Under the pieces are notes generated by a model. It was given only the letters and a program-made list of their open reading frames with translations. It did not search any database and had not been told where the DNA came from. Of a DNA stretch of 38,325 nt, positions 6,809 to 34,632 are shown one piece after another (the stretch's first letter is position 1; each line of letters opens with the position of its first letter). A program made the position numbers and the translations under genes. The stretch comes from a virus. The DNA lies in the IMG/VR virus record IMGVR_UViG_3300042507_008319, positions 1 through 38,325 of that record, one strand, 5' to 3'.

Positions 6809-6835
6809 CCGGGCGGGGTTCGTCGTCCGCCCTGG
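6809..6835 (-). promoter_or_regulatory. Leader hairpin, module copy A
   Basis: On the minus strand, CC(A)GGGCG at the 5' side pairs with CGCCCGG, with one bulged A. The SD GGAG follows within a few nt. It occupies the same place as hairpins 29879-29902 and 32424-32454, between the dyad promoter and the start codon. Confidence 0.5.
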
Positions 6836-6842
6836 TGTCTTT

Positions 6843-6889
6843 CTATTAACGGCCGCCCTGTTGATCGTCAACATGGCGGCCGGAAATAG
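6843..6889 (-). promoter_or_regulatory. 47-bp dyad promoter element, copy A
   Basis: An imperfect palindrome bounded by CTATT and AATAG, with inner arms CGGCCGCC/GGCGGCCG and a centre of GTTGA-TCG-TCAAC. On the minus strand it contains TTGACG (6871-6866) and GTTAAT (6850-6845) separated by 15 bp, which reads as a sigma70-like promoter for the gene at 6796. Its edge touches the stop codon of the upstream gene at 6890. Copies B and C share layout and spacing but not arm sequence. Confidence 0.6.
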
Positions 6890-7210
6890 TTAGAGATCGG
6901 GCCCGATGCCCATTGCGGCGAGTCTCGCCGGGTCGCATCGCACCCGTAGGCGAGCGAGGGCGGGGTGCGTCATGGTGACCTTGCCGCCCGCCTCCTGGGT
7001 GGCGCGGATGGCGGCGAGGAGGATCTCTACCTGGGTGATGCTGGCGCCATGGTTGGCCTGTGGCGGGGCGTTGGTGGGGCGGATGGTGAAGCCCGGGCCG
7101 TAGCGGGGCACGTCGATCGTGATGTCGCGGCGGGTGGTGTCGGCCGGACGGTGGGCGAAGCGGAAGATCAGGCAGCCGGCCAGGAGCAGGAGCAGGAGGG
7201 GCAGGATCAT
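6890..7210 (-). CDS. Small membrane-anchored protein
   Basis: A 106-aa protein whose first 16 residues (MILPLLLLLLAGCLIF) form a hydrophobic segment, either an N-terminal anchor or a signal peptide. The Cys13 context AGC could even be a lipobox (L-A-G-C), which would make it a lipoprotein. The rest is soluble with no recognised domain. The ATG overlaps the upstream stop (ATGA) and uses the GGAGCCCACCCC SD block embedded in the upstream gene. Its TAA is immediately followed by dyad promoter A. Confidence 0.7.
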   Translation of the reverse strand: MILPLLLLLLAGCLIFRFAHRPADTTRRDITIDVPRYGPGFTIRPTNAPPQANHGASITQVEILLAAIRATQEAGGKVTMTHPALARLRVRCDPARLAAMGIGPDL

Positions 7211-10630: not shown

Positions 10631-12096
10631 TCCCCGACGCCCTGCCCGCCGACCACGACGACGGCGAGGACGAGGCTCCCCTGCGCGCCCTCCTCGAAGA
10701 CCAGCGCCTCAGCCGCTTCTCGATCCGCGGCGACCCCCCTGAGCACCTGACCGACTGGCAGCGCTCGGTCATCGCCAGCCCCCACAAGCATACGGTCGCT
10801 TGGGGGGCGAATGGCATAGGCAAAAGCCTTGTTATTGCCGAGATCACGCGCCGAGCCATCGCCGGCCAACTGCATTGGCAGCGCGGCGCCGGGCCCCGGA
10901 CGGTGATGCTCGTAGGCAACACCTGGCAGCAGCTCGGCTCCACGCTGGCCTACCTCTGGCGCTTCGTCGACAAGCGCTGGCTCCGCCCTGGCCTGCGCTT
11001 TGAGGGCGGCCGCGTGATGGGGCAGCGCCTCGCCGTCTTCGACATCGTCGCCGGCCCAGGCCGCGGCGGCGAGCTCCGCTGCGGCACCTTCCGCGCCGAG
11101 AACCTCGCCGGCCCACGCGCCGAAGTCGTAATCACGGACGAGCCGCTACCAGAAGATGTCTACAACGAGCTTTGGCCGCGCCTCTTGGGCCGCGCTGGCC
11201 GCCTATACCAGACCTTCACGCCCACGCTCGGCACAGAGGCAGACCTGGGCTACCTCTGGAAGCTCGTAGACGACCCAACCGTGCCATTCTGTGGCCAGAT
11301 CCAGGGCGAGCTGACCCTCGACAACGTCACGCCCCGCCGCCCGCCCGGCTCGCTCCTGCCCGATCTGCCGTGGATCACCACCACCGAGATCGAGGAGCAG
11401 GTGGCCGGCCTCAGCGCGATGGAGGCCGACATGCGCCTCGGCCGGTCGCGCCACCCCCGCCTCGATTGCGCCTACTTCTCGGCCTGGGGCCCGCACCTCG
11501 TAGCGCCGACCAAAGGCAGCCCTGGCGCACGTCTCGCGGTCGGCATTGACCACGGTTCGGCCCCGGGTCGCCAACGCGCGACCCTCTCCGCCGTCTCCGG
11601 CCACGGCCTGCACGCCCGCGTCTACGCGCTCGGGCACTACCAGGGCGACGGTCGCACCGAGAGCCAGGACGACGCGCGCGGCATCTTGGAGCTACTCCGC
11701 GCGGCCGGCCTCTCCCTCGGAGACGTAGACCTCTGGGTGGGCGACCGCGCCCACGGCGGCGACCGTCGCGGCGGCTACAAAAGCAACCAGCGCCTGCAAG
11801 CCGCCATCGCCGAGGCCCTCGGCTACGACACCCGCACGCCCGGGTGGATGAGCAAGCTGCCCAAGGCGCTCCAGTACATTGAAACCCCCCGAAAGTACGC
11901 CCGCTCGCACCTCGAAGGCGCCGAGGTGCTGCACCGCCTCATGGTCTCCAAGCGGATCACCGTCGATCCGTCCTGCGCGCCCCTCATCCATGACATCGAA
12001 CGCTGGCAAGGCGACCGCCTCGCCCCCGAAAAGGACGGCATCGACTCCCTCCGCTACGGCGTCGTCGGCCTGTTGGAGCAATCCTTGCGCCGTTGA
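10627..12096 (+). CDS. terL: Terminase large subunit (TerL)
   Basis: A 489-aa packaging motor. The ATPase domain has Walker A GANGIGKS at 60-67 and Walker B VVITDE with D171-E172. The C-terminal RNase H-like nuclease shows its acidic residues at D308 (AVGIDHG), around VDLWVGDR, and at D470/D473 (DGIDSLRYG). The upstream frame is open to 9859 but overlaps TerS, and the GTG at 10627 overlapping the TerS stop is the natural start. It cuts concatemers and pumps DNA into the prohead through the portal encoded next. Length is normal for the family. Confidence 0.9.
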   Translation: MIPDALPADHDDGEDEAPLRALLEDQRLSRFSIRGDPPEHLTDWQRSVIASPHKHTVAWGANGIGKSLVIAEITRRAIAGQLHWQRGAGPRTVMLVGNTWQQLGSTLAYLWRFVDKRWLRPGLRFEGGRVMGQRLAVFDIVAGPGRGGELRCGTFRAENLAGPRAEVVITDEPLPEDVYNELWPRLLGRAGRLYQTFTPTLGTEADLGYLWKLVDDPTVPFCGQIQGELTLDNVTPRRPPGSLLPDLPWITTTEIEEQVAGLSAMEADMRLGRSRHPRLDCAYFSAWGPHLVAPTKGSPGARLAVGIDHGSAPGRQRATLSAVSGHGLHARVYALGHYQGDGRTESQDDARGILELLRAAGLSLGDVDLWVGDRAHGGDRRGGYKSNQRLQAAIAEALGYDTRTPGWMSKLPKALQYIETPRKYARSHLEGAEVLHRLMVSKRITVDPSCAPLIHDIERWQGDRLAPEKDGIDSLRYGVVGLLEQSLRR

Positions 12097-14032: not shown

Positions 14033-15004
14033 ATGTCCGCAGGCCAGATCGTCCGCACCGCCGGCCTTGGCGATGCCCTTGTTGCAACCGCGACCAGCTC
14101 GATTCAAGTCGCCCTCGACCCCACCAACCTCAACGCCCAGATCACGGCACATCCGGTTGTGACTGCCATCCTGGCCCGGGATGAGGCGATGGGGAACATC
14201 CTGGGCGCACTCGGCGTCCAGATGAGCTTCGTTAACCTCGGCCAGTCGAAGATGGCCGCGACCTCCGAGGGCTCCGCGCCGTCCCTCACGACCATGCTGG
14301 TGAGCAACATCAGCCTCACCCCGGCGCGCTACGCGATGGCCCGCAACGCCACGGACTGGGCCCGCACGCACCTCGAGCCGCTCCTGAACGGCAGCATCGC
14401 CCCGAACGTCTACGCCCTGATGGTCTTTGACGCCCTGCGCGCCTGGATCAACACGATCGTCAACATGATCTGCGCGCTGGCGACCTCCGCCACCGGCTCG
14501 GCCGGCACCTCTGGCGGCCGCCTGACCTTTGCCGCGCTGACCGACATGGTCACCGACATGCAGGCCGGCGGCGGCGTCGGCGGCAGCGGCTTGATCCTCA
14601 TGCTGCTGGACGCGAAGGGGGTGAAGGATCTCCAGTCGGACATCCTCAACCTCGGCGGCGCCGCGGCTCTCGCGCCGCAGATGCAGCAGTTCCTGAACCG
14701 CGCCCCGAACAGCGGCTACATCGGTCGGATCCTCGACTGTGTCGACATCTACCTTTGTCCTGAGCTGGACACCGACAGCGGCGACACCCTCGGGATCGCC
14801 TTCACTGAGGAGGGCGTGCAGACGAAACACCAGCTTGTCTCGCTGCCCGCCGAGTCGATCCCTGTCGTCTCCGCCGGCTTCGTGACCGTCGAGGCGAACC
14901 GCGGCGCCGGCACCGGCGCCACCACCTTCACGACCACGACCCACGTCTCTGCCGGCATCCGGCAGCAGCAGGGTATCCGCAAGGTCATCTATTCCACCAC
15001 CTGA
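14033..15004 (+). CDS. Major capsid protein
   Basis: A 323-aa protein with strong SD (AGGAGCCCGCC before ATG), right after the scaffold gene. It has the size and composition of an HK97-fold capsid subunit: N-arm, central alpha/beta P-domain (SFVNLGQSKMAATSEG, around 64-79, then long helices near 115-140), and a C-terminal beta-rich domain. Sequence identity to a known family is not evident to me, so position and size carry the call. Confidence 0.75.
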   Translation: MSAGQIVRTAGLGDALVATATSSIQVALDPTNLNAQITAHPVVTAILARDEAMGNILGALGVQMSFVNLGQSKMAATSEGSAPSLTTMLVSNISLTPARYAMARNATDWARTHLEPLLNGSIAPNVYALMVFDALRAWINTIVNMICALATSATGSAGTSGGRLTFAALTDMVTDMQAGGGVGGSGLILMLLDAKGVKDLQSDILNLGGAAALAPQMQQFLNRAPNSGYIGRILDCVDIYLCPELDTDSGDTLGIAFTEEGVQTKHQLVSLPAESIPVVSAGFVTVEANRGAGTGATTFTTTTHVSAGIRQQQGIRKVIYSTT

Positions 15005-15030: not shown

Positions 15031-15753
15031 ATGGCAATCCCAGGAAGCAAGGTCGAAGAGCCGGAAGAGCAGTTCGGGGCGGTCGGCTCTCCAGTCTTCA
15101 GCATGGACGGGGACGGCCTGATCGTCTCAACCCCAACCGTGCCGTGGACCTACATGGCCAATCCCGCCGTTTGGCAGCTTTGGCCCACGGGCGGCGTCTT
15201 CGTTCCGACGCTGTTGAAGGCGACCTGGGCGGCCGGTGTCAACGGGAACGGCGCCCGGATGGCGCACGGCGAGGGCTACATCGCCTCGATGCAGATCGAC
15301 GGGTGGGTGGTGGTTCCACACCAGATCCCTGGCATGGTTGCGTTCGGCGAGCTCCGCCGCCCGACCCGTGACCAGCCATCCACCGTGCTGAACCGCTGGA
15401 CGGTGCGCCGCCAGCGTGGCGGCGTCGAAGAGCAGCACTACACCAGCGCGTGGCGCCGCCCGATTCAGTACGGCCCAGTCACACACTGGGAGCACGACGC
15501 CGAGGGCGACAAGGCAAGCCGCCTCGCCATCGCCAAGACCGTCCTGCGCATGGACCCCAACAAGCTCCCCGACCCCATCGCCAACGCCGCCGCCCGCCCC
15601 GTGGAGTCGGCCATCACCGCCCTCCTGGCTCAGCAGACCTCCCCCGTCCGCGACGCCGAGCTGCGCCGCCTGTCTCGGCAACTCCCCGAATCCATCCTCG
15701 ACCGCCACCCCTACCGGCGCACCCTCGCCGCCATGCTCAAGGACGACGAATGA
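15031..15753 (+). CDS. Unknown virion protein after the capsid gene
   Basis: A 240-aa protein preceded by AGAGGACACC. The N-terminal 130 residues look beta-rich with Trp and Gly turns (PAVWQLWPTGGVFVP, around 46-60; IDGWVVVPHQIPG), and the C-terminal 90 are helical and charged. It could be a head decoration or head-completion protein. No family recognised. It is coupled to the next gene by an ATGA overlap. Confidence 0.65.
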   Translation: MAIPGSKVEEPEEQFGAVGSPVFSMDGDGLIVSTPTVPWTYMANPAVWQLWPTGGVFVPTLLKATWAAGVNGNGARMAHGEGYIASMQIDGWVVVPHQIPGMVAFGELRRPTRDQPSTVLNRWTVRRQRGGVEEQHYTSAWRRPIQYGPVTHWEHDAEGDKASRLAIAKTVLRMDPNKLPDPIANAAARPVESAITALLAQQTSPVRDAELRRLSRQLPESILDRHPYRRTLAAMLKDDE

Positions 15754-26581: not shown

Positions 26582-26628
26582 GCGCTCCCCGGCCCGCTCT
26601 CCCCTCCTGGCCGGTCTGAGGTTGTTCC

Positions 26629-27081
26629 ATGTCCATCCCCGCAGGGACGGGGGCCTACAAGCTCCCTCGCCGCAACTCCGCCGGCGAGATCGACGCCGGC
26701 TCGCAGAAGATCAAGAACCTGACCGCGGGCGCCGCGACCGGCGACGCCGTCGAGTACGATCAGCTCCAGTCGGCGATCTCCGGCGTCTCGGTGCCGAGCG
26801 TCGAGACGATCAACGCGATCACCACCTCGGCCACCGCGACCGCCGGGATCTTCACCACCAACACCGTGAGCACCTCGGGCGGCGCCGTCACCGTGACGCT
26901 CCCCGCCGCCGCGACGGGCAAGGTGGTGAAGATCGTCGTCATCGACGACACCAACGCCGTCACGATCGCGGCCGGCTCGGGCGACGCGCTCGGCACCAAC
27001 GTGCCGACCTCGCTCCTGGTCGAGGACGAGACCCTGAAGCTCATCGCCCTGGACGCCACCACCTGGCGCGTCGGAGCCTGA
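26629..27081 (+). CDS. Short tail fibre protein
   Basis: A 150-aa protein. The segment GEIDAGSQKIKNLTAGAATGDAVEYDQL (split here: IDAGSQKIKNLTAG then TGDAVEYDQL, about 22-47) is the widespread tail-fibre motif in which a parameter-like 'I.nL..p...tDAv.k.ql' strand precedes the fibre shaft. A Thr/Val-rich beta region and a tip ending LIALDATTWRVGA follow. It is probably a trimeric adaptor or short fibre bound to the baseplate. Confidence 0.7.
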   Translation: MSIPAGTGAYKLPRRNSAGEIDAGSQKIKNLTAGAATGDAVEYDQLQSAISGVSVPSVETINAITTSATATAGIFTTNTVSTSGGAVTVTLPAAATGKVVKIVVIDDTNAVTIAAGSGDALGTNVPTSLLVEDETLKLIALDATTWRVGA

Positions 27082-27084
27082 TCG

Positions 27085-28179
27085 ATGTCTGCCCCCCTTG
27101 GTGTCCGTCATGGGCTGTCCAGGCTCGATCTCACCTGGGGGACTGGCCTCATGGGCAACGTCGACTTTGACGGCGCCCAGGACCCGGACGGATGGACCCG
27201 CGTTGGCTCGGGTTCGTCCGCCGTCTACACCTACTCCGGGACCGCTCGGGTCCTGGAGTACGCGGTCGTCACCGTCTCGGCCGGTGTCACGGTGCAGCCC
27301 GCGGGCTGCCCGCTCTTCATCGCCGATCGGCTGATCCTGGGCGCCGATGCCCAGGTGAACGCCAGCGGCGCCCACGCATCAGGCAGCACCGGCGGGGCAG
27401 CGGCCCCGCTCGTGTCGGGCGCCTTCCTGGGCGGCGGATCGGCCGGCCGAAACGGCGTCAACGGCGGCAACGCGGGGCTGGCCAGCACCGCCGTCTCTGC
27501 GGTCGGGCTCGGCGCCCGCGGCGGCGCAGGTGGCACCGGCTACCGCGCTACCACCAACCTCGCCGGCGGCGCCGCTGGCACCGTCTCGGCCTACACCGTG
27601 GCAAGCGGACCCCCGCACCAAGGGCTGGTCTACCTCCCCTTCCAGCTTGCGGCGAGCGGCACCGCCCGCGGCGGCTCCGGCGGCGGCTCCGGCGGCACCG
27701 TGGGGACCAGCGGCACCTCTGGCGGCGGCGGTGGGGGCGGCGGCGTGCTTGTCGTGATTGCCCGCCGCGTGCATCAGGCGGCCGGCTCCTCGCGCGCCTC
27801 CCTGGCTGCCCGCGGCGGCAACGGCGGCCTGGGCACCGGCATCGAAGGCAGCGGCTCTGCGGTACACTGTGGCGGCTCTGGCGGCGGGGGCGGCGGCTCT
27901 GTGGTCATGATCGCCCACACCCTGGTAGGCGAGGTCTCCATTGACGTGTCCGGCGGCGACGGCTCGGCCTCGGTCTACTCCGCCACCGCCGCGACCGGCG
28001 CTGACGGCGGTAATGGTGGTAGTTTTGGCTCAATTTGGGGCTTCTACGCTGAGGCCGCCGCCGAGCCTTCCTTCCCCACTCTCGGTGGCGCCGGTGGCGC
28101 TGCCTTTGTCGGCACTCTCGGCGGCACCGTCGGCGCCGATGGGACCGGTACTGACTTCATCACTCTTGCGAGGATCTGA
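27085..28179 (+). CDS. Glycine-rich tail adhesin (receptor-binding candidate)
   Basis: A 364-aa protein. The N-terminal 90 residues are beta-rich (ARVLEYAVVTVSAGVTVQPAG, a pectate-lyase-like or beta-solenoid start). From about 100 to 330 it is dominated by Gly-rich loops: GGAAAPL, GGGSAGRNGVNGG, GARGGAGG, runs near 197-222 with eight consecutive Gly, and GGSGGGGGGS. This resembles the polyglycine-II sandwich of T2/S16 gp38-type adhesins, in which short Gly-rich helices display variable host-binding loops. Likely the host-range determinant. A bacterial Gly-rich surface protein origin is an alternative. Confidence 0.65.
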   Translation: MSAPLGVRHGLSRLDLTWGTGLMGNVDFDGAQDPDGWTRVGSGSSAVYTYSGTARVLEYAVVTVSAGVTVQPAGCPLFIADRLILGADAQVNASGAHASGSTGGAAAPLVSGAFLGGGSAGRNGVNGGNAGLASTAVSAVGLGARGGAGGTGYRATTNLAGGAAGTVSAYTVASGPPHQGLVYLPFQLAASGTARGGSGGGSGGTVGTSGTSGGGGGGGGVLVVIARRVHQAAGSSRASLAARGGNGGLGTGIEGSGSAVHCGGSGGGGGGSVVMIAHTLVGEVSIDVSGGDGSASVYSATAATGADGGNGGSFGSIWGFYAEAAAEPSFPTLGGAGGAAFVGTLGGTVGADGTGTDFITLARI

Positions 28180-28418
28180 TGCCCGACCCCAACGACTCCG
28201 CCGCCTGCGCGGCCTCTCTCGCCTCCGTCCAGGCCGGCCCCTGGCTCTGGCGCTCCGATGATGCGGTCTACTCCACGACGGTCAACCGCTCGCGGATCTC
28301 CCCCGACGGCGAGTTGCAAGTCTACCTCACCGGCGAGGGGTGGATGTCTTACGCCGACTTCGCCGCCAACCGCGCGCTCTTGACCGACGTTCTCGCCGGC
28401 GCCGAGATCCCGGGCTGA
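28179..28418 (+). CDS. Unknown 79-aa protein after the adhesin
   Basis: Starts MPDPNDSAACAASLASVQ at an ATG sharing the A of the adhesin stop (TGATG). It has WLWRSDDAVYSTTVNRSRISPDGELQVYL, split over two predicted strands, and is soluble. It could be an adhesin chaperone or a small tip component, by its coupling to the adhesin gene, but nothing identifies it. Confidence 0.6.
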   Translation: MPDPNDSAACAASLASVQAGPWLWRSDDAVYSTTVNRSRISPDGELQVYLTGEGWMSYADFAANRALLTDVLAGAEIPG

Positions 28419-29878: not shown

Positions 29879-29902
29879 CCGGGGCTGTGTGCAGCGCCCC
29901 GG
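29879..29902 (-). promoter_or_regulatory. Leader hairpin, module copy B
   Basis: CCGGGGC/GCCCCGG, a perfect 7-bp stem with 10-nt loop, followed at once by AAGGAG on the minus strand. The expected transcription start of the dyad promoter (about 29905) is just before its 5' base. Confidence 0.55.
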
Positions 29903-29909
29903 TGCTTCT

Positions 29910-29957
29910 CTATTATCGGCCGGTGCGTTGAGCGTCAACACACCGGCCGGAAAATAG
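29910..29957 (-). promoter_or_regulatory. 48-bp dyad promoter element, copy B
   Basis: Bounded by CTATT and ATAG, with arms CGGCCGGTG/CACCGGCCG and centre GTTGA-GCG-TCAAC. On the minus strand TTGACG (29938-29933) and GATAAT (29917-29912) are 15 bp apart. The element touches the TGA of the upstream ATPase gene (29958) and reads toward the small gene at 29866. Confidence 0.65.
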
Positions 29958-31856
29958 TCACAGGCGCTGCCAGTGCGTGGCGATGGCGGCCGGGCCCGCC
30001 TCTTCGCTCGGCTCGGTGAGCAGCCAGAGCAGCGGGCCCTGGCTCGGGTAGTTGCCGCCGCTCCAGCTCTGGGCGTCGTCAATGCAGATCGGCAGGTCGG
30101 CGAACCCCCCGATCCCGCCGCGCTGCGGGTGCCGCCGCGCCGCAAGGGTGCGCAGGGCGTAGGCCAGGAGGGATGATGCGTGCACGCGCCGGCCGGTGCT
30201 GGCCAGATACGAGGGGAGCCCGTCGATCATCAGATCGAGGCCGTCGACCTCGCCGGCGGGGCGGATGCGGATCTCGACGCCCTGGCTGGCGAGCATCTTC
30301 GCCGCGGGCCTCCAGTCGACGAGCTGCTGCTCGAGGACTCGGGCCGGTGCCCCCTTGTGCGCCGCTTCCACGGCGCGGGCTCGGGCCAGCTCTGCCTCTC
30401 TGGCCTTGAGGGCATCGGCGGCGCGGTCGATGTCTTCGCTCAGCGTGGTGGTGCGCGCCTCGTAGGCGCGGAGGTCGGCGGCAGCCTGGGATGCGCGGCT
30501 GAGCAGGGCGCGGGCCTGGGTGACCTCCTCGGCGGTGGGCTCGCCAGCGGCAGGTGTGGCCGGCGCTCCTGTCGGCTCGGGGTCCACCGTGGGCTCGGGG
30601 CCGAGGGCAGCAACGGCGGCGTTGCGCAGCTTCCGGGCCTCGGCTTCGGCGCGGTAGCCGTCCAGCTCGGCCTGGGCGCGTTCGGCCCGCTCCTGAGCCA
30701 CCTTGAGCTGCTCCTGGGCCTTGGCGAGCTGCTCCTGGGCCCGGCGCCGGGCCGCGTCCACGAGGTCGTGCGCGGTCTTCTTCTCGGCCTCGATTTGCAC
30801 CCGCGCGGTAGCGGCCACCTGGGCGATCCGCGGCGGCGGCACGACCTGGCCGCACAGGTCGCAGCTCGCGGTGGGGAGGGCTGCCCAGCGGGTAGCCGCG
30901 GCGAGGCGCCTCTCGTGCACGCCCGGCGCGGTGTCGGCCGGGCCGCGCGGGAGCCGGTCAAGCTCGGCTTGGGCCTGGGCCACGGCAGCTTCTTCGGTTC
31001 GCGTGCTCGGCACCTTCGGCGGCGGGGCGCCGTCGAAGGCTTGGGCCGGCGGGATCTCGGCCATCCGGCGGCGCCAGTCGGCGAGGGCGACCTGCTGCTG
31101 AGCCCGGCGCTCGCCAGCTCCGCCCGCGCGCCGGAAGGCGGCCCAGGCCTCTCCGGCCTCCACAACGGCGCGGGCGGCAGCCGTGGCCGACTGATCGGGC
31201 ACCGTAGGCGCCCCCTGCTCTTCGTGGCGCTGCTGGGCAGCTTGCGCGCCGTCCAGGGCACCCAGCGCCCGATCCCGCGCGGCGGTGGCCCGCGTGGTCG
31301 CCTGCACCGCCCCGCGGGTGTCTACGGCGTCCCCGGGCAGCGCAGGGGCAAAGGTGCCGAGGAGCTCCGCAAGGGCCTTGTCGAGGCTGCGCTCGGGCAG
31401 CGCCGCGGTGAGGGTGGCCCGCAGGAGCCGCCCCTGCCCGTCCTCCGCCTGCCTGAGCAGCGCCAGCGGGCAGACGATGCCCGCGACAAGGGAGGCGACC
31501 GAATCGAGGCCCAGCGGGCCCAGGATGCGCCACCGGTCTTTCGCGGCGGTGATCGTCTCCTCACCTCGCCGCCAGACCTTGCGCCCGCTGCTGCTGACCC
31601 GCAGATCGTACACGGTGCCGTCGTCCGCGCTGACCCGCACCGAGCCGGCGCTTGAGCTGAGCGCCATCGGGTCGATGGTCGACCCGTCCGGCGCGGCGCC
31701 GGTGAGCAGGTAGCAGAGCGCCGCGGCTACCGTGCTCTTGCCCGACTGGCTCGGCCCGGCGATGACCAGGGCGCCGTGGCCCTCGGCGTTGTGCGGCAGG
31801 GGGAGATGGGTGGTGGCGGCGTGGGGGCCGACGCCGGACAGCTCAATCGCTTTCAC
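29958..31856 (-). CDS. Rad50/SbcC-like SMC-type ATPase
   Basis: A 632-aa protein. An N-terminal ABC-type P-loop GPSQSGKST lies at 34-42; two coiled-coil arms (about 170-320 and 345-530) flank C332-D-L-C335, a CxxC hook like the Rad50 zinc hook. A degenerate signature SxGRRxHASSLLAYALRTL (around 565-583) and Walker B PICIDDA (D593-D594, not the usual DE) follow. It is about 60% of SbcC length, similar to T4 gp46. SbcC normally works with the nuclease SbcD, which I do not see here. It begins with GTG overlapping the stop of a small membrane-protein gene. Likely recombination or DNA-end processing. Confidence 0.8.
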   Translation of the reverse strand: MKAIELSGVGPHAATTHLPLPHNAEGHGALVIAGPSQSGKSTVAAALCYLLTGAAPDGSTIDPMALSSSAGSVRVSADDGTVYDLRVSSSGRKVWRRGEETITAAKDRWRILGPLGLDSVASLVAGIVCPLALLRQAEDGQGRLLRATLTAALPERSLDKALAELLGTFAPALPGDAVDTRGAVQATTRATAARDRALGALDGAQAAQQRHEEQGAPTVPDQSATAAARAVVEAGEAWAAFRRAGGAGERRAQQQVALADWRRRMAEIPPAQAFDGAPPPKVPSTRTEEAAVAQAQAELDRLPRGPADTAPGVHERRLAAATRWAALPTASCDLCGQVVPPPRIAQVAATARVQIEAEKKTAHDLVDAARRRAQEQLAKAQEQLKVAQERAERAQAELDGYRAEAEARKLRNAAVAALGPEPTVDPEPTGAPATPAAGEPTAEEVTQARALLSRASQAAADLRAYEARTTTLSEDIDRAADALKAREAELARARAVEAAHKGAPARVLEQQLVDWRPAAKMLASQGVEIRIRPAGEVDGLDLMIDGLPSYLASTGRRVHASSLLAYALRTLAARRHPQRGGIGGFADLPICIDDAQSWSGGNYPSQGPLLWLLTEPSEEAGPAAIATHWQRL

Positions 31857-32095
31857 GGCTCACCCCCGCACAGATCGGCGCGCATAGCCTGCGCGTCGGT
31901 CATCAGCGCGTTGGCGCGGGCGTCGATCTCCTGCGCCTTGAGGAGCTGCTGATCGGCCAGAGCAAGGCTCGTCTCGGCGTAGGACATGATGAACAGCGCG
32001 ACAAGCGCGCCGCAGAGGATGGCCATACCGAAGGCGTGAGTAAGCCGAACGACGGCGGGCTCGGGCTGGCTGGGGTCGGGCGGGATCAGGGACAT
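31853..32095 (-). CDS. 80-aa single-span membrane protein coupled to the ATPase
   Basis: MSLIPPDPSQPEPAVV is a short Pro-rich N-tail; residues about 21-39 (AFGMAILCGALVALFIMSY) form one membrane span; the rest is an Ala/Asp/Gln-rich helix (LALADQQLLKAQEIDARANAL) likely to be a coiled coil. SD CAGGAGCCCCG precedes the ATG. It overlaps the SMC-like ATPase gene by GTGA, so the two products are probably made in fixed ratio. An anchor for the ATPase is a possible reading. Confidence 0.7.
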   Translation of the reverse strand: MSLIPPDPSQPEPAVVRLTHAFGMAILCGALVALFIMSYAETSLALADQQLLKAQEIDARANALMTDAQAMRADLCGGEP

Positions 32096-32114
32096 CGGGG
32101 CTCCTGGTGGTGGG

Positions 32115-32197
32115 AGACACAGCCCCCGCGGATCGGCGCACAGAGCCGAGGCGTCGGGCGGCGAGGGCGGTGTCTGTCACCCCCTGGGAGGGGGGTG
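32115..32197 (-). other. Two hairpins between minus-strand genes
   Basis: AGACAC (32115-32120) plus GCCC pairs with GGGC plus GTGTCT (32065-type stem ends at 32175), a long 10-bp stem with one mismatch. Next to it CACCCCC (32178-32184) pairs perfectly with GGGGGTG (32191-32197) over a 6-nt loop. They separate the gene ending at 32205 from the gene starting at 32095. No T-tract follows, so a factor-dependent terminator or RNA processing site is more likely than an intrinsic terminator. Confidence 0.5.
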
Positions 32198-32204
32198 GGC
32201 GCGA

Positions 32205-32411
32205 TTAGGCGCGGGCAAAGAAAGCGGCAGCGGTCTTCCGGGCCTCGTTCGCGCTGCTGTAGGCGGTCCCGTTCAGCGGGTGCCGCTCAACGGTGGGCAG
32301 GTGGCGGCAGGAGGCCTGCGCGCTGATGGCGGCGCCGTTGCGAGTGGTGACGATCTCAAGGCCGGCGTTGTCAAGGGCGGCTTCGGTGGCGGCGATCTTG
32401 GCGGGCGACAT
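32205..32411 (-). CDS. Small 68-aa protein behind dyad promoter copy C
   Basis: Opens MSPAKIAATEAALDNAGLE and has mixed alpha/beta composition (IVTTRNGAAISAQASCRHLP, then GTAYSSANEARKTAAAFFARA). Length equals the other two genes behind dyad elements, but the sequence is not clearly related to them. A stand-alone alpha/beta unit such as a DNA-mimic or small regulator is possible; nothing identifies it. SD GGAGCCCCGCC precedes the ATG. Confidence 0.65.
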   Translation of the reverse strand: MSPAKIAATEAALDNAGLEIVTTRNGAAISAQASCRHLPTVERHPLNGTAYSSANEARKTAAAFFARA

Positions 32412-32423
32412 GGCGGGGCTCCT

Positions 32424-32454
32424 CCAGGGCGGCGGGGTTGGTGTGCCGCCCTGG
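32424..32454 (-). promoter_or_regulatory. Leader hairpin, module copy C
   Basis: CCAGGGCGGC pairs perfectly with GCCGCCCTGG across an 11-nt loop, directly followed on the minus strand by AGGAG. The strongest of the three module leader hairpins. Confidence 0.6.
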
Positions 32455-32461
32455 TGATTAG

Positions 32462-32509
32462 CTATTATCGGCCGGCCCGCTGAACGTCAACGGGCCGGCC
32501 GAAAAATAG
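32462..32509 (-). promoter_or_regulatory. 48-bp dyad promoter element, copy C
   Basis: Bounded by CTATT and AATAG, with arms CGGCCGGCCCG/CGGGCCGGCCG and centre CTGA-ACG-TCAA. On the minus strand TTGACG (32490-32485) and GATAAT (32469-32464) are 15 bp apart, as in copies A and B. It begins 4 bp after the TGA of the gene at 32514. Confidence 0.65.
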
Positions 32510-32513
32510 TGCA

Positions 32514-32972
32514 TCAGGGGTTCTCGGGGATCTCATCAAAGTTGATGCTCGGCGGACCGTCCGAGGACGGACGCACAGAGGGGCCCCGCTGGCGGAAGGG
32601 CCGATCGGTGGGCTTCTCCTCGCTGATGGCGCCGTAGGGGTCCTGGCGCGGCGGGGGGTCGCCGAGCGGCTTGGGCGGCGGAACGAGGGCCTCCGCGGGC
32701 GTCTTGGGGTCGGTGGCGGGCTTCTCCTGGGAGGCGCGCGGACGACGACGGGGCGGCTCCTCGGTGCCCCCCGTGGCAGCGTTGGCCGGCGCGGGCGGGG
32801 GCTCCTCGGTCTTGGGGGGCTCGGGCTGGGGCTGCTGCTGCTGCGCCACGGTGGGCTCGGGGAGCTTCACCGGCTCGGGGGGCTGCGGGGTCGGCCCTGG
32901 CTGGCGCAGGCCCAGGCCGGCGGCGAGCACGGCGGGCAGGTCGTTGGGGTCGCAAAAGATGACGGCGATCAT
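32514..32972 (-). CDS. Proline-rich low-complexity protein
   Basis: A 152-aa protein starting MIAVIFCDPNDLPAVL; only the first 30 residues look folded. The rest is Pro/Gln/Glu/Arg-rich (QQQQPQPEPP, PPRRRPR), intrinsically disordered, ending PSINFDEIPENP. Such tails often bind partners or tether. The SD is weak, and a start further upstream in the open frame cannot be excluded. It lies between the exonuclease cluster and dyad element C. Confidence 0.55.
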   Translation of the reverse strand: MIAVIFCDPNDLPAVLAAGLGLRQPGPTPQPPEPVKLPEPTVAQQQQPQPEPPKTEEPPPAPANAATGGTEEPPRRRPRASQEKPATDPKTPAEALVPPPKPLGDPPPRQDPYGAISEEKPTDRPFRQRGPSVRPSSDGPPSINFDEIPENP

Positions 32973-33022
32973 GTGGTGGCATCCATGGTGAGGGGAGAGC
33001 GGCCCGGGAGAGGTCGGGGAGG

Positions 33023-33053
33023 CCGCGGGCATGTGGGCCAGGTCTGCCCGCGG
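33023..33053 (-). other. Hairpin in the 153-bp gap between minus-strand genes
   Basis: CCGCGGGCA (33023-33031) pairs perfectly with TGCCCGCGG (33045-33053) over a 13-nt loop. It lies after the gene ending at 33126. No T-tract follows. The rest of the gap shows only purine/GC-rich sequence. Confidence 0.45.
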
Positions 33054-33125
33054 TGGGGGAGGGTCAGGCGCCGCGGAGGGCCCGCGCGGCGTGAGAGAGG
33101 GAGAGCCCGGGCCGGGCAGGTGGGG

Positions 33126-33791
33126 TCAGTCGCCGTGCTGCTGAGCATCGGCGCCGGGGTTGGCTGCGGCGAGGGCGGCGCGGCCCTTCTCGCTCCGGGC
33201 CCAGGCCGCGGCCTTCACGCGGCCGGCGTGGTCGGTCGGGCAGGGGCGGCTGCTGGCGGCTGTGATGGCGGCCTCGGTTGCTGCGATGTCTTCGCCGCGC
33301 TCGGCGGCGACGGCCAGGAGCGGATCGTGGCCGGCCGCTGTGGGGTCGGGCATGGCGGAGATCGTGTAGGTCGCGGCGCGGCTACGGTTGAGCTTGACCT
33401 TGACCTGCACGTCGGCGGGGATGACGGCGCCGGTGATTCTGATGCCGCCCGGCTTGCCGCCGCCCGGGTTGGGGATCTGCGGGTCGCAGATCAGGAAGAC
33501 CAGCTTGCCGGCGAGCGCGTCGAGATCGTCGCCGAACACAGACGCAAGGCACTCGCCTTGATTCTTCGATGCAATCCAAGGCGAATGGGTCGAAGTGACC
33601 GGCGAGCCGTCAAGGTGGCGGATCAGTAGCTCGATCTTGGCGCGATCCTTCTCCTTCTCCTCGCTGGCCTTGCTGGTCTTGAGCGGTACATACTCTTTCG
33701 CCGACTCGATTCTGTACCACCGTCCATCCTTCGGGATGATGTGTGGGGCGATCGAGTCGGACGCGAAAACGGCGCGGATGCTACGGCTCAT
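33126..33791 (-). CDS. Phage protein associated with the exonuclease
   Basis: A 221-aa protein, ATG overlapping the exonuclease end by 11 bp. Residues about 65-115 (SPWIASKNQGECLASVFGDD, then LAGKLVFLICDPQIPN and GGIRITG) follow the pattern 'N..na..la..fGdd.d.w.Gk.v.l......ggIrv' of a conserved phage protein often found near RecB-like exonucleases. The C-terminal 90 residues are Ala-rich helices. A single-strand DNA-binding or annealing-cofactor role is possible from context but not shown by sequence. Confidence 0.6.
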   Translation of the reverse strand: MSRSIRAVFASDSIAPHIIPKDGRWYRIESAKEYVPLKTSKASEEKEKDRAKIELLIRHLDGSPVTSTHSPWIASKNQGECLASVFGDDLDALAGKLVFLICDPQIPNPGGGKPGGIRITGAVIPADVQVKVKLNRSRAATYTISAMPDPTAAGHDPLLAVAAERGEDIAATEAAITAASSRPCPTDHAGRVKAAAWARSEKGRAALAAANPGADAQQHGD

Positions 33792-34632
33792 CGGGCTGCT
33801 CCTCGGTGTCGACATCCTCTTCCGCCCATGCGGGCAGGATGATGTCGTAGGGGTCTGGGATGCGGCCGGGGTAGACGCCCGACCGGGTCGCCTCTGCCCA
33901 GGTCGCCATGGTGCGGCGCCAGAGGGCGCGGCCGATGTCCAGGCCGCCGCCCATGACGAGTTGAAACACGCCGACATCGTGGGGCGCGCGGTCCTCCACG
34001 ACGATGACGGCGGCCTCGGTTGGGTAGACGCCGGTGAGGGCCTTCACGGCCTCGGCGTAGTGGGCGAGTTGTAGGTGCACGAGCTGCTTTGCGATCTCGC
34101 GGGAGACTGACAGCGGGTCAGTTGAGCCCCACGTCTTGAGGTCGGCGATGATGACGCCGACCTCGGCATCAACCCAAAGGTCAATGCGGGCTTTGCAGGG
34201 TAGGCCGGTGACTTCGTCGGTCCAGACGACGGTCACCTCGGGGCGGGCGTCGGCGTGGGTCAGGAGCGGCCCGGCTACCGGGTGGGCAAGGAGAGCGGCG
34301 GCCCTGGCCTGCACTCGCGCCCGCTCGGCGCTGGTGAGCACGGTGCGGCCCGCGCCGACCTGCTGCTGCGAGAAGTCGAGCCACGCCTGCCCTTGGCGCT
34401 TTCCCTCCCAGACCGCATAGCCCCGCCGGAAAGCGGCCTCGCCTTCCAGGGCCAGGGTGTGAGTGGCGCGGAGCTCCATCCGGCTGTGCGTGTCCGGCCC
34501 ACCCCCTTCTCGCAGGTAGTGCAGGCCGTGAAGCGGCGAGCCATTCGCCACGCGCTTGAGCAGCGAGGCGTTCACGCCGGGGATCGCGCTGTACTGCTCA
34601 AAGGCGAGCCCCTGATAGGCCTTGGCGGTCAC
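33781..34632 (-). CDS. PDDEXK exonuclease (RecE/Exo8-like)
   Basis: A 283-aa protein with a GTG start overlapping the upstream stop (GTGA). The nuclease core shows CKARIDLWV with D151 and IADLKTWG with D164-L-K166, the D...(D/E)xK signature of phage RecE/YqaJ-type exonucleases, and an N-terminal H-x-L-x-x-E style segment THTLALEGEAAF. A conserved Gln-x-x-x-Tyr-like QLVHLQLAHYAEAV follows, as in RecB-family motif III. It would resect linear DNA ends for recombination with a single-strand annealing protein, which I could not identify with certainty nearby. Confidence 0.8.
   Translation of the reverse strand: MTAKAYQGLAFEQYSAIPGVNASLLKRVANGSPLHGLHYLREGGGPDTHSRMELRATHTLALEGEAAFRRGYAVWEGKRQGQAWLDFSQQQVGAGRTVLTSAERARVQARAAALLAHPVAGPLLTHADARPEVTVVWTDEVTGLPCKARIDLWVDAEVGVIIADLKTWGSTDPLSVSREIAKQLVHLQLAHYAEAVKALTGVYPTEAAVIVVEDRAPHDVGVFQLVMGGGLDIGRALWRRTMATWAEATRSGVYPGRIPDPYDIILPAWAEEDVDTEEQPDEP

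Follow-up and report, generated by a model that had tools for sequence, protein, structure and literature searches.

A Rad50-like zinc-hook ATPase encoded near a RecE-type exonuclease, without Mre11/SbcD, in a phage genome

Results

The ATPase locus

The virus record IMGVR_UViG_3300042507_008319, whose full 38,325 nucleotides are referred to here as the window, encodes a Rad50/SbcC-like zinc-hook ATPase (29958-31856, minus strand; 632 aa, GTG start). Upstream on the same strand lie the genes for a RecE/exonuclease VIII-type PD-(D/E)XK exonuclease (33781-34632, minus strand; 283 aa) and for a protein of the phrog_11517 family (33126-33791, minus strand; 221 aa), whose start overlaps the exonuclease end. 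The exonuclease gene ends 1.9 kb upstream of the ATPase gene.

A first-pass annotation of the sequence had described the ATPase by its P-loop, a CxxC hook between coiled coils and a Walker B motif with two Asp residues, and all three are present. The Walker A motif reads GPSQSGKS (residues 34-41), the hook is CDLC (residues 332-335, between predicted coiled coils), and in the Walker B motif IDDAQSW (residues 592-598) D593 is followed by a second Asp, not by Glu. At the position where ABC proteins have LSGGE, the ATPase carries the variant ASTGR (residues 552-556). Pfam AAA_23 (PF13476) matches residues 4-87 with 29.9 bits, above its gathering score of 27. The ATPase thus shares with Rad50/SbcC the AAA_23/SMC-type N-terminal P-loop and the CxxC hook between coiled-coil arms, and lacks the LSGGE/Q signature, the Glu after the Walker B Asp and an Mre11/SbcD encoded alongside.

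The ends of the contig (1-291 and 38035-38325) form a 291-bp repeat with 98.6% identity (4 mismatches) within the same helicase reading frame. The genome, about 38.03 kb, is therefore essentially complete, which makes the absence of SbcD meaningful. Metallophos (PF00149) has no match in the window phage record or in the six core records, while 14/14 control genomes were positive; highly diverged versions could escape this search. The earlier claim that no SbcD-like phosphoesterase is encoded is borne out. Although the record is classed as linear, it probably represents a complete, circularly permuted genome that was assembled from a mixture of strains. No whole-genome DNA similarity to known phages was found.

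A family of zinc-hook ATPases with a variant head

Searches with the single ATPase sequence found no close homologues in annotated phages and plasmids, and scans of viral contigs were likewise empty; relatives were therefore reached via the terminase and the exonuclease. The terminase relatives yielded a sister phage, G004 (IMGVR_UViG_3300008259_004935, 35.8 kb), which is collinear with the window. The exonuclease profile recovered 35 viral loci, and ATPase profiles then added the locus L074 and the genome contigs L077 and L078. The latter two are metagenome-assembled contigs from a second genome-contig scan, the first having been empty; L078 looks phage-like and carries a phrog_11517 gene.

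The ATPase family (n=7 proteins, 560-640 aa) has in common the Walker A motif GPS[QE]SGK, the CxxC hook, ASTGR[QR] and Dx[AV]Q. The hook cysteines C332 and C335 are invariant. ASTGR is found in six members; the exceptions to the signature pattern are ASRGRQ in L077 and ASTGRM in L078. The residue after the Walker B Asp is D (window and G004), R or N. When a profile of the seven-member family was compared with the PDB, the best match was E. coli SbcC (E 1.7e-4), and the ASTGR segment aligned, weakly, onto the Rad50 signature. An AlphaFold model of the ATPase, built from 4 sequences, is poor (mean pLDDT 53.5); in it, long helices flank residues 327-340, with low confidence.

The known systems with the same layout of Walker A motif, antiparallel coiled coil, CxxC hook and C-terminal signature/Walker B region are the SbcC/Rad50 proteins of SbcCD, Mre11-Rad50 and phages T4 (gp46/47) and T5 (D13/D12). 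The ATPase family differs from these in having no SbcD/Mre11, ASTGR for LSGGE and no catalytic Glu, and its members are shorter than the E. coli SbcC chain (1048 aa). In jumbo phages, SbcC with SbcD is nearly universal (PMC7824862). The archaea-specific SMC-related proteins (ASRP: ClsN, Sph1/2) resemble the window ATPase in their length of about 600 aa, zinc hook and SMC-type head. As proteins of the archaeal chromosome they differ from phage recombination genes (PMC9389158), and membership of the window ATPase was rejected, the ASRP model NF045487 giving 9.4e-9 and 34 bits, far under the cut-off of 300.

Compared with G004, most structural and replication genes of the window are 90-97% identical, the ATPase 72% and the exonuclease 70%. 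Within the ATPase, the hook region (codons ~251-400, window 30657-31106) is 28-48% identical at the amino acid level, against 70-90% in the flanks. The hook half has been replaced or is fast-evolving; its edges are fairly abrupt, and both CxxC cysteines are kept.

The exonuclease and its phrog_11517 partner

The window exonuclease matches phrog_412, the exonuclease VIII family, with 8e-49 and NF007259, the nuclease end of RecE (residues 610-875), with 3.9e-16. The PD-(D/E)XK core of the RecE C-terminal nuclease is present, and D164-L-K166 is invariant. In its overlapping partner gene the window resembles RecE/lambda Red-type modules; the partner, however, is phrog_11517 and not RecT/Beta, and the hook ATPase is additional.

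The phrog_11517 family gave a confident AlphaFold model (pLDDT 90.3) with a predicted OB-like barrel. The best matches of its first 135 residues are largely OB-type barrels (RPA, Rim1, the RuvBL OB insert), all weak, with Z up to 4.8; Foldseek on the model returned no significant match. The phrog_11517 gene is found at 31/42 exonuclease loci, never together with RecT. RecT, ERF and Sak4 had no match in the six core records, although highly diverged versions could escape. We infer that phrog_11517 fills the place of an annealing or ssDNA-binding protein, the slot held by RecT in other phages. By BLAST, the 221-aa protein is neither the one annotated as ssDNA-binding in Roseobacter phage CRP-406 nor the KBS-S-2A neighbour. 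Compared with G004, the gene (33126-33791) is mosaic, the N-terminal two thirds being much diverged and the last ~65 residues ~85% identical.

ATPase relatives adjoin recombination genes

The first-pass annotation had offered a recombination set as one reading of the locus. This reading is supported because relatives of the ATPase adjoin an exonuclease with phrog_11517, a YqaJ exonuclease with RecT, or annealases. The order in the window and G004 is exonuclease, phrog_11517, small genes, ATPase. L044 and L048 have exonuclease, phrog_11517, a 99-aa gene, a 120-aa soluble gene and the ATPase, and L078 has phrog_11517, a 133-aa gene and the ATPase. In L074, the ATPase follows a YqaJ exonuclease and RecT and precedes an RNase_T exonuclease.

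G008 and L039 encode hook ATPases of another type (719-760 aa) beside the same exonuclease type and phrog_11517, in the order exonuclease-ATPase-phrog_11517 or exonuclease-phrog_11517-ATPase. In G008, the two genes are directly adjacent, the exonuclease ending at 966 and the ATPase starting at 968. These ATPases likewise have no Glu beside the Walker B Asp (LIDGLE).

The ATPases of phrog_1499 (225 phage records; PHROGs gives the function as unknown) share the neighbours exonuclease, phrog_11517 or RecT, and SSB, as well as the degenerate Walker B (IADG, without Glu beside the Asp); examples are gp69 of Arthrobacter phage Gorpy and the protein of Glutamicibacter phage BIM BV-113. Unlike the window ATPase, they are ~400 aa long and have no CxxC hook. 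The L074 ATPase resembles phrog_1499 over the P-loop (4e-8 to 5e-10). The matches of the window ATPase (E 0.026) and its G004 homologue (9e-4) are short or weak and fall short of full-length family membership. Cultured Arthrobacter and Glutamicibacter phages carry, in this order, an exonuclease, phrog_11517 or RecT, the phrog_1499 ATPase and SSB, and phrog_1499 genes adjoin exonuclease, RecT, Sak4 or SSB genes in 6/8 records examined. In six further records, the neighbours are a RecE-like exonuclease and RecT in Lymara, a recombination exonuclease in K248 and Sak4 in Javan173 and BCJA1c; the neighbourhood is less clear in phi12:1 and MaeS. A Rad50-like ATPase in recombination modules appears to be a widespread theme in phages.

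For Arthrobacter phage Lymara gp43 (L083:4821-6233) and other phrog_1499 ATPases like it, the deposited name is 'MRE11 double-strand break endo/exonuclease'. This is likely a naming error, since the matching part is the Rad50-like ATPase.

In related modules, small proteins or the ATPase itself end in acidic C-terminal tips that close on PF and resemble the bacterial SSB C-terminus (DDEAPF in L044:7826-8125, DGFGSIPF in L078:503-904, DDDVCPF in L031:968-3250 and DSDACPF in L039:11594-12172). These tips could recruit SSB-binding host proteins.

A promoter-like element separates the exonuclease and ATPase genes

The first-pass annotation had placed the exonuclease upstream of the ATPase in one leftward block. 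The position and the strand stand, but the block is probably two predicted transcription units, because a 77-nt promoter-like element divides the exonuclease and ATPase genes. This palindromic element (32434-32510, minus strand; TTGACG...GATAAT) lies upstream of a unit whose first gene encodes a 68-aa protein (32205-32411, minus strand; 96% identical in G004), followed by a small membrane protein gene and the ATPase. The last gene of the exonuclease unit encodes a proline-rich low-complexity protein of ~152 aa (32514-32972, minus strand). A second copy of the element directly follows the ATPase stop (29882-29958, minus strand), and a third, with TTAAT in place of GATAAT, is found at 6815-6891 (minus strand). 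In these elements a GC-rich inverted repeat encloses TTGACG...GATAAT, and the arms vary between copies with complementarity kept. G004 carries similar 77-nt elements at corresponding places, including upstream of the 68-aa, membrane protein and ATPase genes. From its sequence, the element resembles a promoter that carries a palindromic operator and controls early operons.

Discussion

A proposed role at DNA ends

We consider it probable, with considerable room for doubt, that the ATPase assists a Red/RecET-like recombination module as an accessory, bridging or clamping DNA ends without Mre11/SbcD. In the proposed mechanism, the RecE-type exonuclease would resect DNA ends and the phrog_11517 OB-like protein would coat or anneal the single strand so exposed. 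Two ATPase molecules would pair by way of the CxxC zinc hook and the ATP-bound heads, and the dimer could hold or bridge the ends for resection and annealing with no need for Mre11/SbcD. Because the catalytic Walker B Glu is missing, hydrolysis is probably slow, and the protein probably serves as a clamp or tether that ATP switches, not as a motor. RecF also has Asp at the catalytic-Glu position. The observations themselves are of gene content, motifs, conservation and synteny; the bridging of DNA ends and the binding of ssDNA are inferred, as is cooperation of the ATPase with the exonuclease, which is suggested by their neighbourhood.

Several points weigh against this role. The ATPase head fold has no structural confirmation at a mean pLDDT of 53.5, and the OB assignment of phrog_11517 rests on Z < 5. 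Only 2/7 family members (window and G004) come from complete or near-complete genomes. In the window, the promoter-like element falls within the 1.9 kb between the two genes, and 24/31 exonuclease-phrog_11517 loci have no ATPase in the flanking sequence examined. Moreover, the neighbourhood counts are raw, uncorrected for how often exonucleases lie near early phage genes in general.

A bolder version, which we put forward tentatively and hold to be doubtful, is that phages have a system of their own for processing DNA ends. There a Mre11-free zinc-hook ATPase without the catalytic Glu, together with an OB-like RecT substitute, would serve exonucleases of the RecE/YqaJ type as a clamp or loader switched by ATP.

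Alternative explanations

It was also suggested that the exonuclease physically replaces SbcD; it would then dock on the ATPase heads or the coiled-coil base and come under ATP control in the way that Rad50 gates Mre11. The PD-(D/E)XK exonuclease and the hook ATPase are repeatedly neighbours, directly so in G008, in records where Metallophos is absent. However, the exonuclease family varies (RecE-type, YqaJ) while the ATPase family stays constant, and the two genes lie in separate transcription units in the window. Enzymes of the RecE and lambda Exo type act on their own, as ring-shaped oligomers, and the exonuclease is independent of the ATPase because most phages carry it without one (34/42 loci). 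We regard such a replacement as unlikely.

The ATPase could instead have no part in recombination and be a superinfection-exclusion or anti-defence factor resembling LmuB, the SMC-like protein of Lamassu. Weak profile matches to LmuB (5e-10 over residues 27-96) agree with this idea, but they cover the generic P-loop region and coiled coil and fall well short of a full-length match. Among the neighbouring genes no Lamassu effector was seen, and related ATPases adjoin exonucleases and annealases. The anti-defence role named in the first-pass annotation found no evidence, and we judge it improbable.

The overlap of the ATPase start with the gene for an 80-aa single-span membrane protein had prompted the idea of a membrane-tethered complex. 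This gene (31853-32095, minus strand; one hydrophobic span, KD19 = 2.15) does overlap the ATPase start by 4 bases (GTGA). Its G004 homologue (81 aa, 73-75% identical) keeps the 4-base overlap and the pair shows purifying selection (dN/dS ~0.38), so that the gene is genuine. A small membrane protein gene lies directly upstream of the ATPase at only 2/18 loci scanned, the window and its collinear sister G004; it is absent from this position at the other 16, five of them of the same family. No such gene stands next to the ATPase in L044, L048, L074, L077 and L078, beside the hook ATPases of L031 and L039 or in the phrog_1499 phages. Such absence is what the first-pass annotation had itself named as refuting its idea. 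The small two-span membrane proteins 0.5-1 kb downstream of the ATPase in L044 (10702-10851), L048 (~11021-11170) and L078 (3698-3883) are unrelated in size and topology to the single-span protein. Anchoring of the ATPase at the inner membrane for end-sensing, for example at a DNA entry site, is thus very unlikely despite the overlap and purifying selection in two phages, because the membrane protein gene is missing beside every ATPase relative found except that of G004. The 80-aa protein is lineage-specific, with translational coupling to the ATPase in this lineage only, and is not part of the conserved mechanism.

Other differences from the sister phage

Two genes in the capsid region of the window (14033-15004 and 15031-15753) are 39% and 33% identical to G004, in surroundings of 80-97%, and likely reflect capsid-gene exchange. 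At ~26600-28200, the window carries glycine-rich, probably fibre-like genes that have no counterpart in G004, with both flanks matching; this segment is a candidate host-range region.

Implications

We found no description of the exonuclease-phrog_11517-hook ATPase gene set in the papers searched. Rad50 is nearly always discussed together with Mre11, whereas here Mre11-free hook ATPases recur in phage exonuclease/annealase modules. This raises the question of what role Rad50-type ATPases play at DNA ends when the nuclease comes from another family. The hookless phrog_1499 group includes cultured phages in which the question is testable. The ATPase may also be a new part for recombineering systems, with phrog_11517 as a candidate partner in the place of RecT.

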